In this document: positions 10,780-15,952 of the stretch, in pieces
Layout of the letters: every line of letters begins with the position of its first letter
Position numbering within the stretch: position 1 is the stretch's first letter
Assembly: GCA_016937575.1 (NCBI GenBank)
Contig: JAFHKN010000002.1
Coordinates: forward strand, 1,178,001-1,242,000
DNA from: Roseomonas aeriglobus
GTDB taxonomy: Bacteria > Pseudomonadota > Alphaproteobacteria > Sphingomonadales > Sphingomonadaceae
Length of the DNA stretch: 64,000 bases
Reading direction: 5' to 3'
The notes under the pieces: model-generated
Told to the model about the DNA's origin: nothing
The model's input: the letters and a program-made list of their open reading frames with translations, nothing else
Databases searched by the model: none
Position numbers and translations under genes: made by a program

Positions 10780-10787
10780 GGCCGTAG

Positions 10788-10849
10788 TCGTCACACATCC
10801 GTAACATCCTCGTCACGCAAGCGTCTCCGAACCTCAACGCCCACGTCAC
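10788..10849 (+). promoter_or_regulatory. Candidate PhoB box array (six in-phase 11-bp units)
   Basis: Seven-base units begin every 11 bp at 10788 TCGTCAC, 10799 CCGTAAC, 10810 TCGTCAC, 10821 GCGTCTC, 10832 CCTCAAC and 10843 ACGTCAC, each followed by a 4-nt spacer. A 7+4 spacing with GTCAC or GTAAC cores is the layout of PhoB binding sites. A possible -10 (CTAGCG) lies about 10 nt after the last unit. The array ends 114 nt before the lipoprotein start. Binding is inferred. Confidence 0.6.
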
Positions 10850-10963
10850 ATCCCGGGCCTAGCGCGCCGATCGAAGGCCGACAGGGGGATCTGAGTCGGC
10901 CCGCGGGGGGCATCCGCTTCCCCGGACAGTCGCACACCAGCGAACCACGACACGGGAGACGTC

Positions 10964-12553: not shown

Positions 12554-12634
12554 GGACCCGATCCGGGGGCGCAGCGGACCGCTCGCGCCCCCGGACACCC
12601 TCATCCCGCGACATCTGCCGAAAGCTGACACGAC

Positions 12635-15313
12635 ATGAAGATCATCGCCCTCTGCCTCGCGAGTTCCGCGCTGGTGGCACCCGCCGCCCTGGCGCAGACG
12701 ACGACCCCGGCGACGCCGCCGGCCTCGACCCCGCCGGCCGCCCAGGACGACGCGCCTGCACAGCAGACGGTCGAGACCTCGACGCCCGGCGCGGAGGCGA
12801 TGGAGGACATCGTCGTCGTCGGCCGTCACATCCCCGACACCGTTCGCGCGACGCCGCAGGTCGTGTCGGTGCTGTCGGCCGAGGACATCGCGCGCACAGG
12901 CGAAGGCGACATCGCCGGCGCGCTTCAGCGCGTGACCGGTCTGTCGGTCGTGGGCAACGGATTCGTCTATGTCCGCGGCTTGGGCGATCGCTATTCGAGC
13001 TCGCTGCTCAACGGCTCGCCGCTCCCGTCGCCGGAGCCGCTGCGTCGCGTCGTCCCGCTCGATATCTTCCCGACCAATGTCATCGCCTCCAGCCTCGTTC
13101 AGAAAAGCTATTCGGCGAATTATCCGGGCGAATTCGGCGGTGGCGTCATCAACCTGACGACGCGCGCGGTGCCCGAAAAGACGTTCCTGCAGATCGGCGG
13201 GTCGGTCAGCGCGGACACGGTGACCACCAGCGAATTGGGCGTCGTCTACGATGGCGGCCGCTATGACTGGACCGGCTTCGATTCGGGCGAGCGGACCGTG
13301 CCCGGCTTCATCAAGCAGGCTGGCGCTGCCGGCGCGTCGGTGACCAACGCCGCCGATCTGATTACCCTGTCGAACGCGCCGACCACGCTGCTGCTTCAGA
13401 ACCCGCAGCTGCCGGCAAACCTGTCGGGCGAAACCAGCTTCGGCGGTTCGATCGACGTCGGCAGCGTGCGCCTGGGGCTCATCGGTGCGGCCGGCATCAA
13501 CAACGGCTGGCGCACGCGCGAAGCGACGCAGCAGGTGACCGATGCCGCGTCGGGCGCGCTGGTGCGCGATTTCCGCACGATCCTGACCGACAACCGCGTG
13601 ATCGTGAACGGCCTGTTGGGGCTCGGCGCCGAATTCGGCGACCAGAAGATCCGCTGGACCAACCTCTACATCCACGACACGCTGAAGCAGGGACGCCTGG
13701 CCAAGGGCAGCACCAGCAACATTGGCGTGCTGGCGGGCGGTATCCAGCCGTTCATCGAACAGAACACCAACTGGTTCGAACGCCAGCTGATCGACAGCCA
13801 GCTGGTCGGCGAATTCAAGATTTCGGACGTCAGCGTCGATGTTCGCGGCAGCTATGCCGAGACGCAGCGCAACTCGCCCTACGAGCGCGCCTTCACCTAT
13901 CAGTACAACACCGCCGCGCGCGACTACGTCAACAACCTGTCGGGCCTGCAGAACGCCAGCGTCAACTTCTCGGAGTTGAACGAGACCTTGTGGTCGGGTC
14001 AGGCCGACGTGTCCTATCGCCTGCCGGTCGGGCGCCCGGTGACTGTGTCGGCGGGCTATTATTACGCCGATACCGACCGCGACTCGACGCGTTACACCTT
14101 CCGCTACCAGCTGCCGGGCGGCGTGGCGCTGAACCCGGTCGCGGCACAACAGCGGCCCGATTTCCTCCTGAGCGACTCGACCATTCAGCGCTTCGGGATC
14201 GTGCTCCAGAACACATCGACCGCGCTGGGCGCCGCCGCCTATGACGCCGAGCTGACCGTTCACGCCGGCTATGGCCAGGTCGAAGCCGAAGTGATCGACG
14301 GCCTGCGCGCGAACCTGGGTGTTCGCTATGAAAAGGCCGACGAGCGCGTGACCACCGTCAACGGCACGCGCAACACGCTGCTCGCCAACGACTATTGGCT
14401 TCCCGCCGCGACGCTGACCTGGAACTTCGCCAGCGACATGCAGCTGCGTCTGCACGGGTCGAAGACGATCGCCCGCCCGCAGTTCCGCGAACTCGCGCCG
14501 CAGATCTATCAGGACTTCGAAAGCGACCGTCAGTTCTTCGGCAACCCGCTGCTGGTCGATTCGCAGCTGTGGAATGCCGAAGCGCGCTACGAATGGTTCT
14601 TCGGCCGCGACCAGCGCTTCACGCTGGCGGGCTTCTTCAAGAAGATCAACAACCCGATCGAGGCGGTCGCCTTCTTCCCGGCGGGCACCGACAATCTCCA
14701 GACCGGGTTCGCCAACGCGCCGTCGGCCAAGCTGTACGGAGCCGAGGTCGAGGTACAGAAGAAGTTCGATCTCGCGCCGATCTTCTCCGCCGACTTCTTC
14801 TCGACCAAGCGCCTGCTGGCGATCGCCAACTACACCTACACGCACTCGACCGTGTCGGCCGGTACCGAGCAGGTCGCGAGCCCGCTGCAGCCCGCCAACG
14901 GTGCGGCGGTGTTCGTGCCCGCGAACCTCATCTTCCGCGACGGCGCGCCGATGGTCGGCCAGTCGGACCATCTGGTGAACGTCCAACTCGGGATCGAAGA
15001 CACGGCATCGCTGTCGCAGTTCACCGTTCTGCTGAACTACGCGAGCGACCGCGTGACGAACCGCGGTCCGGTCGCAGCCGGCGGCGGCGTGCGCTTGCCC
15101 GATCTGGTCGAGCGCCCCGGCTTCCGCCTCGATCTCGTCGCTCGCCAGGGCTTCACCGTCCGCGGCGTCGATTTCGAAGTGAAGGCCGAGGGGCGCAATC
15201 TGACCGGCACCGGCTACCGCGAATTCCAGGACTTCGGGAACGGCGTGAAGGTCGACGTCAACCGCTACCGCCTGGGTCGCGTGTTCTCGCTGGGACTGAG
15301 CGCGAAGCTCTGA
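12635..15313 (+). CDS. TonB-dependent outer-membrane receptor
   Basis: An 892-aa protein with signal peptide (cleavage near ALAQ, residue 21), a pre-plug EDIVVVGRHIPDT motif, and a plug domain at about 65-195. The plug carries YVRGLGDRYSSSLLNGSPLP, LRRVVPLDIFPTNVIASSL and GEFGGGVINLTTRAVPEKT. A 22-strand barrel should make up the rest (tyrosine/aspartate-alternating strands, GAEVEVQKKFD). The last residue is Leu rather than the usual Phe. It imports a large or scarce substrate using TonB energy. The gene lies 81 nt after the lipoprotein gene and is probably co-transcribed under the Pho-box-like array. Confidence 0.9.
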   Translation: MKIIALCLASSALVAPAALAQTTTPATPPASTPPAAQDDAPAQQTVETSTPGAEAMEDIVVVGRHIPDTVRATPQVVSVLSAEDIARTGEGDIAGALQRVTGLSVVGNGFVYVRGLGDRYSSSLLNGSPLPSPEPLRRVVPLDIFPTNVIASSLVQKSYSANYPGEFGGGVINLTTRAVPEKTFLQIGGSVSADTVTTSELGVVYDGGRYDWTGFDSGERTVPGFIKQAGAAGASVTNAADLITLSNAPTTLLLQNPQLPANLSGETSFGGSIDVGSVRLGLIGAAGINNGWRTREATQQVTDAASGALVRDFRTILTDNRVIVNGLLGLGAEFGDQKIRWTNLYIHDTLKQGRLAKGSTSNIGVLAGGIQPFIEQNTNWFERQLIDSQLVGEFKISDVSVDVRGSYAETQRNSPYERAFTYQYNTAARDYVNNLSGLQNASVNFSELNETLWSGQADVSYRLPVGRPVTVSAGYYYADTDRDSTRYTFRYQLPGGVALNPVAAQQRPDFLLSDSTIQRFGIVLQNTSTALGAAAYDAELTVHAGYGQVEAEVIDGLRANLGVRYEKADERVTTVNGTRNTLLANDYWLPAATLTWNFASDMQLRLHGSKTIARPQFRELAPQIYQDFESDRQFFGNPLLVDSQLWNAEARYEWFFGRDQRFTLAGFFKKINNPIEAVAFFPAGTDNLQTGFANAPSAKLYGAEVEVQKKFDLAPIFSADFFSTKRLLAIANYTYTHSTVSAGTEQVASPLQPANGAAVFVPANLIFRDGAPMVGQSDHLVNVQLGIEDTASLSQFTVLLNYASDRVTNRGPVAAGGGVRLPDLVERPGFRLDLVARQGFTVRGVDFEVKAEGRNLTGTGYREFQDFGNGVKVDVNRYRLGRVFSLGLSAKL

Positions 15314-15376: not shown

Positions 15377-15952
15377 ATGCGCTGGTGGTTTTTAGTGGCG
15401 GCAGCGGTCGCGCTATTCGGTTGCGCACACAGCGTTGCCCCGACCCAACGCGAAACCCGATCCTGCGCGTTGACCCTCCCGCAGAAGCTCGCAAACGCTA
15501 GCTTATCGTTCGGCGACTTCGACCAATCGAACGACCATCCTGCCACGGCGGCCTCTCTGTCGGCGCGTGGGTGCCATGCCGCCGCGGCGGAGGCGGGGCA
15601 GGACTATCTCGCCCGTCGCAACGACCTGCCCGAACGTCTGCGGACGAGCGTGCTGTTCCATGTCGCGCGCAATCTGGCGATGGCCGGCCGCAACGACGAG
15701 GCGGCGACTGCGGCGCTGGGCGCGGTCCGGGATGATGGTGGCAGCGATCCCGCCTTCGATTGGAACGCCTATGTATTGGGCACATGGGCGTTCCTGAAGC
15801 GGGATCGCGCATTGTTGGAGGCCAAGCTCGTTCGGCTGCGGTCGCTGCAAGGCCACGCCAACGTTACCAACGCCCGCGTCTTGGATGGCCTCGCGCGCTG
15901 CTTTAGCAAACCCTACGCCGAGGCTGCGACACCCGCCTGCCAGAGGCCATAA
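15377..15952 (+). CDS. Hypothetical lipoprotein (191 aa)
   Basis: Starts with RWWFLVAAAVALFGC, a short lipoprotein signal with lipobox LFGC (Cys16). The mature part is alpha-helical, with repeats of the LRTSVLFHVARNLAMAGRNDEAA type that look like one or two TPR-like helix pairs (about residues 75-115). It has several cysteines. No family recognised. It follows the TonB receptor by 63 nt on the same strand and could be part of the same transcript. Confidence 0.65.
   Translation: MRWWFLVAAAVALFGCAHSVAPTQRETRSCALTLPQKLANASLSFGDFDQSNDHPATAASLSARGCHAAAAEAGQDYLARRNDLPERLRTSVLFHVARNLAMAGRNDEAATAALGAVRDDGGSDPAFDWNAYVLGTWAFLKRDRALLEAKLVRLRSLQGHANVTNARVLDGLARCFSKPYAEAATPACQRP

Follow-up and report, generated by a model that had tools for sequence, protein, structure and literature searches.

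The stretch of DNA analysed here, hereafter the window, comprises 64,000 nt of Roseomonas aeriglobus (contig C2, positions 1178001-1242000, in a genome of 4.28 Mb). A peptidase-C26 gene is followed by a gene for a lipoprotein and then by genes for a TonB-dependent receptor and for a protein without a family hit (Table 1). The 184-nt gap between the stop of the peptidase gene (10779) and the ATG of the lipoprotein gene (10964) holds an array of six head-to-tail 11-bp units and a proposed -10 element, and a G+C-rich hairpin lies between the lipoprotein and receptor genes.

Table 1 Features at the locus and Pho-box-like pairs elsewhere in the genome; positions without a contig name count from the first base of the window
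Feature	Position	Strand	Basis or remark
Peptidase-C26 gene	9925-10779		upstream neighbour
Array of six head-to-tail 11-bp units	10786..10851	+	phasing, pstS matrix, conservation
CCTAGC, proposed -10 element	10858..10863	+	position; conserved spacing
Lipoprotein, 529 aa, precomputed family PF28492	10964..12553	+	homologue of Caulobacter ElpS-kind lipoproteins
G+C-rich hairpin, 11-bp perfect stem, between the two genes	12562..12595	+	fold z-score
TonB-dependent receptor, 892 aa, Plug and beta-barrel domains	12635..15313	+	domain searches
191-aa protein without family hit	15377-15952		after receptor gene
Pho-box-like pair before a further TonB receptor gene	C2:2923261	-	L176
Pho-box-like pair before a further TonB receptor gene	C5:136697	+	L177
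Pho-box-like pair before a further TonB receptor gene	C2:836373	-	L171

A phased array upstream of the lipoprotein gene

The first-pass annotation had described seven-base units at 10788, 10799, 10810, 10821, 10832 and 10843, spaced by exactly 11 bp, and these positions agree with the sequence. Taken as complete 11-bp units, the repeats start at 10786, 10797, 10808, 10819, 10830 and 10841, with the cores GTCAC, GTAAC, GTCAC, GTCTC, TCAAC and GTCAC. The fifth unit, which had been called weak, is indeed degenerate, both here (TCAAC) and across orthologue promoters. Scored against GTCAC at 11-bp steps, the array reaches 25 of 30 at 10790, higher than anywhere else in the window on either strand, with runners-up of 22 on the forward and 21 on the reverse strand. 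The maxima of 100 dinucleotide-preserving shuffles of the window ranged from 18 to 22, and none reached 25. In the genome, the array is the only place that fits GTCACN6GTCACN6GTCAC with no more than one mismatch. We conclude that the array is real and not a product of chance.

PhoB-dependent promoters are defined by tandem 11-bp direct repeats with seven conserved bases plus four (PMC4415409), and the array has this layout. For comparison with Pho boxes of the same clade, expectation maximisation, seeded with the TGTCAT repeat, was run on regions upstream of pstS in family genomes and gave a 22-bp matrix. Of the 19 pstS-like loci found, 16 were used; L085-L087, a second copy and two weak matches, were excluded. 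No sequence of the array locus was included in the training set. The matrix, with the consensus CccTGTCATcAAA.CGTcACg, ranks 10786 first of all positions on both strands of the window. The Pho-box reading of the first-pass annotation is supported, the units of the array agreeing with pstS boxes from the same family. Within one window, the two-unit matrix by itself does not reach significance (59 of 100 shuffled windows hold an equally good site); the case is built on the phasing of all six units and on conservation.

Conservation and promoter spacing among orthologues

Searching named genomes with an alignment of the lipoprotein gave at least 552 confirmed loci, of which the best 80 were used; exclusion of five loci with fewer than 150 bases upstream left 75 upstream regions. 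The pstS matrix reaches at least 8 bits in 60 of these 75 regions and at least 12 bits in 40. Control tiles from the same loci, on both strands, reach these values in 131 (2.1%) and 54 of 6266 cases, respectively; 8 bits are also reached by 2.2% of mononucleotide shuffles and by 3 of 75 reverse complements. Single weak matrix matches nevertheless count for little, because 12 of the 75 regions still reach 8 bits, and three reach 12 bits, when read backwards without complementing. The counts are moreover not independent, since the loci include close relatives. In a separate, earlier set of 30 loci (the window's own included), 11 had arrays that none of 200 mononucleotide shuffles reached; this set comes partly from the same species, and some species are common to the two sets.

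PhoB sites overlap the -35 position (PMC3348028). In the window, CCTA starts 14 nt after the first base of the CGTCAC of unit 6, and YGTCAY is followed by CCTA at the same offset in 45 of the 75 orthologue regions from the best 80 loci, so that the last box lies at the -35 position, at a fixed distance from the proposed -10 element. At other offsets the strict pattern has a mean of 0.26 and a maximum of 2 occurrences, apart from further peaks at 36, 47 and 58, which equal 14 plus 22, 33 and 44 and correspond to phased units upstream. With a relaxed half-site, 49 of the 75 regions have CCTA at offset 14 (other offsets: mean 1.19, maximum 6), and the reverse-complement control gives 0. The first-pass annotation had proposed a search for 11-bp-phased units upstream of orthologues as a check; by matrix score as well as by spacing, they are conserved.

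The 49 orthologue promoters selected by the relaxed half-site and CCTA were aligned with that of the window. Strict YGTCAY is present in unit 6 of 46 of these 50 promoters, this unit being set by the selection; it is present in units 1 to 4 of 21, 9, 9 and 15 promoters, respectively, and in unit 5 of none, which indicates that the weak fifth unit is a shared trait. The same degeneracy of the penultimate unit is found in the E. coli pstS promoter, which also resembles the array in its 11-bp units, its strong last unit and its CCTA at 14 nt; its CCTA offsets of 14, 36 and 47 are likewise seen in the orthologue promoters. The array differs from it in having six units rather than four, and units of the form CGTCAC rather than TGTCAT; each unit is therefore weaker and the number larger. 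The sphingomonad pstS promoters, from which the scoring matrix was derived, share the 11-bp units of the array, and 9 of 16 have CTA at 26 nt (15 + 11). Upstream of the genome's own pstS, half-sites recur every 11 bp, and the stretch inspected contains no CTA element.

The exceptions fall both inside and outside the sphingomonads. Fifteen of the 75 regions from the best 80 of at least 552 loci remain below 8 bits: six from sphingomonads (L088, L089, L096, L097, L099 and L131) and the others from five Brevundimonas, Asticcacaulis, Xanthomonas (7.3 bits), a Caulobacteraceae MAG and Oceanicaulis (L166). The relaxed half-site with CCTA spacing is absent from 26 of the 75, and is kept in several regions with scores below 8 bits, among them Xanthomonas L126, Brevundimonas L150 and Asticcacaulis L153. 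Both promoter tests are failed by eight regions (L089, L130, L131, L137, L147, L148, L161 and L166), four of them from Brevundimonas, although six phased units are visible in L089. PhoB control of the pair is best supported in Sphingomonadales.

The lipoprotein-receptor pair and its relation to ElpS and CC0171

The lipobox of the lipoprotein ends at Cys23 and is followed by a Pro/Thr-rich linker. Residues invariant among 21 sequences include D272, D273, E276, D294, D295, D298 and D300. In the Pfam and NCBIfam libraries searched, the protein has no match at E <= 0.001; PF28492 is the precomputed family of this protein and of relatives among the matches listed. The beta-helix fold named in the first-pass annotation is putative: Pfam Beta_helix is found in one of 21 family members, weakly (E = 0.7). 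Sequence searches of the PDB yielded no convincing relative for the lipoprotein (five matches with E values of 0.57-7.9, in the linker) and, for the receptor, only regions of the colicin I receptor. The residue directly after the lipidated Cys is Asp in the window protein and Gly in the other 20 aligned sequences; Asp in this position is considered an inner-membrane retention signal (PMC2996285).

Of 199 family genomes, 141 contain matches to the lipoprotein. Its best named relatives are from Sphingomonas, and the pair has representatives in Sphingomonadales, Caulobacterales and Xanthomonadales. In 78 of the best 80 of at least 552 loci, the lipoprotein gene has the receptor gene directly behind it in the same orientation; in the remaining two, the contig ends there. 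The sequence extends at least 1.5 kb past the receptor gene in 70 of these 80 loci; among these 70, gspC is the next gene on the same strand in 30, and gsp genes lie elsewhere in the locus in five more. Four gspC-gspD pairs were checked against Pfam. In the window genome there are no gsp genes beside the pair, and gspC is at C2:642933. A search at E <= 1e-4 found no pstS in the best 80 loci. The hairpin between the two genes has no clear T run after its stem. Across 79 lipoprotein-receptor gaps (those of the 78 loci and of the window), 64 have a folding z-score of -2 or lower against mononucleotide shuffles, a mild control, and 49 contain a perfect stem of at least 8 bp; the window itself has z = -1.9.

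Some relatives depart from the usual gene structure. Four loci (L149, L156, L159 and L160) have frames of 926-947 aa, against about 500 aa otherwise, apparently with a doubled lipoprotein domain. In Xanthomonas arboricola pv. guizotiae CFBP 7408, the lipoprotein frame is interrupted and forms two open frames (L126:5866-7470), and a full-length relative is present in another Xanthomonas (P0323). In P0349, a piece of PstS (TIGR02136 positions 50-145) runs into a complete PF28492 protein; this looks like a run-on of adjacent sequence, and we set it aside.

The gene order recalls that described in 2010 in Caulobacter crescentus, where CC0170 (ElpS) and CC0171 directly precede gspC-N, with similar gene organisation in Xanthomonas campestris, Sphingomonas alaskensis and Hyphomonas neptunium (PMC2996285). 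According to that report, ElpS is a surface lipoprotein of about 50 kDa that is produced specifically under phosphate starvation and whose release requires type II secretion. Its over-production raises alkaline phosphatase activity in supernatants, ElpS itself being no phosphatase, and deletion of elpS leaves phosphatase activity unchanged; expression of cc0171 is reported for rich as well as poor medium, with the data not shown there (PMC2996285). PhoB of C. crescentus controls, directly or indirectly, the type II secretion system, PstSCAB and a variety of TonB receptors, among others (PMC11208175).

Like ElpS and CC0171, the window pair consists of a lipoprotein gene followed by a TonB receptor gene, homologous lipoproteins are present in Caulobacter species, and relatives share the order lipoprotein-receptor-gspC in the 30 of 70 loci noted above. 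Over 513 columns, the window lipoprotein shares 44% identity with P0285 of Caulobacter endophyticus, a protein of the same family, and the Caulobacter homologues P0257, P0273, P0280, P0285 and P0312 have 486-489 residues. Family, size and gene order suggest that it is an orthologue of CC0170, which is not named among the matches listed (at least 120). The loci differ in that the type II secretion genes are directly downstream in Caulobacter and elsewhere in the window genome; we therefore regard the window pair as a homologue of ElpS-CC0171 rather than of the full locus. The promoter array is described here for the window pair, and the term "Pho box" is absent from the text of PMC2996285. The first-pass annotation was not aware of any link between this pair and phosphate, but one is already in print for the homologous elpS-cc0171 (PMC2996285). 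A literature search by abstract openings found no report of PhoB control of the pair in a sphingomonad.

Phosphate depletion also induces TonB transporters with partner lipoproteins in Flavobacterium (PMC8115612), where PusCD and the lipoprotein Fjoh_3856 (FI) with the transporter Fjoh_3857 (Tbdt) likewise pair a TonB transporter with an outer-membrane lipoprotein. The window lipoprotein differs in that no SusD family was found in it or in the family members searched, and we therefore rejected membership of the SusCD/PusCD group.

Proposed regulation and role of the pair

The genome encodes PhoB 4.4 kb after pstS, at C2:2084085; the match scores 332 bits, above the cut-off of 296. The array, its match to the pstS matrix, the conserved -10 spacing and the presence of an encoded PhoB together uphold the promoter part of the Pho-box reading. 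The array is a predicted PhoB operator made up of three tandem Pho boxes, and PhoB very probably controls an operon of lipoprotein and TonB receptor that resembles ElpS-CC0171. For the window organism, both the binding of PhoB and the response to phosphate are predictions from sequence.

Loose three-unit matches are common, with 77 genome matches at up to three mismatches against 50 for the reversed pattern, and might suggest that the units reflect chance or base composition. We reject this explanation, whose likelihood is negligible: no shuffle reaches the six-unit score, and both the phase and the -10 spacing are conserved in orthologues, with no occurrence in the reverse-complement control. 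A different regulator is harder to dismiss, since response regulators of the OmpR family commonly bind 10-11-bp direct repeats and a search with the PhoB model found twelve further regulators in the genome that match nearly the whole model. Were one with a similar 11-bp direct-repeat site to bind the array, the operon would answer a different signal. However, the matrix was trained on pstS promoters alone, the -10 spacing fits the pstS promoters of the same family and of E. coli, and the Caulobacter homologue is produced specifically in phosphate starvation (PMC2996285); we consider control by such a regulator improbable.

How the pair would serve the cell is less clear than how it would be controlled. 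The most straightforward role for the two proteins would be to import a phosphorus compound, and we give this an even chance; the suggestion of the first-pass annotation that the substrate is a phosphate compound is plausible. The operon could also be phosphate-controlled while the lipoprotein, once released, stimulates extracellular phosphatase, as suggested for ElpS, and the receptor has a separate job. The rise in supernatant phosphatase upon over-expression of ElpS, itself inactive (PMC2996285), and the position of gspC after the pair in many loci fit this division of labour, which we regard as a serious possibility that falls short of an even chance. Set against it are the unchanged phosphatase activity of the elpS deletion (PMC2996285) and the pairing of lipoprotein and receptor, which extends more widely than the linkage to secretion genes and therefore points to a joint function of the two proteins. 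With PhoB control and import taken together, the PF28492 lipoprotein and its receptor might tentatively be seen as machinery that captures and imports a phosphorylated ligand in phosphate starvation. Such machinery would be a counterpart in Proteobacteria, with an unrelated lipoprotein, of the phosphate-utilisation SusCD systems of Bacteroidota.

Under this capture-and-import model, phosphorylated PhoB would fill the six units head to tail when phosphate is low, and the downstream unit, overlapping the -35 position, would help polymerase onto the CCTAGC at 10858. A single transcript would then encode the lipoprotein and the TonB-dependent transporter. The hairpin between the genes may lower the yield of receptor and so leave the lipoprotein more abundant. 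The lipoprotein, probably displayed at the cell surface on the outer membrane, would capture a phosphorus-containing ligand or help to release it, and the transporter would import it.

A widespread outer-membrane pair, mostly annotated as a hypothetical protein beside a TonB receptor, thereby gains a likely regulator and a promoter layout, and is linked to ElpS, the one homologue found with experimental data. Its ligand is narrowed to one that it would pay to import, or to process extracellularly, under phosphate shortage. The layout of Pho boxes and -10 element can also help to list the Pho regulons of sphingomonads. A stricter two-unit pattern, which has 10 matches in the genome against 3 for a reversed control, was rejected for that purpose because it misses both the array and the site of the genome's own pstS. 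With these misses and about three false matches expected among the 10, its matches are leads only; three of the 10 precede genes with a TonB receptor plug domain (Table 1).
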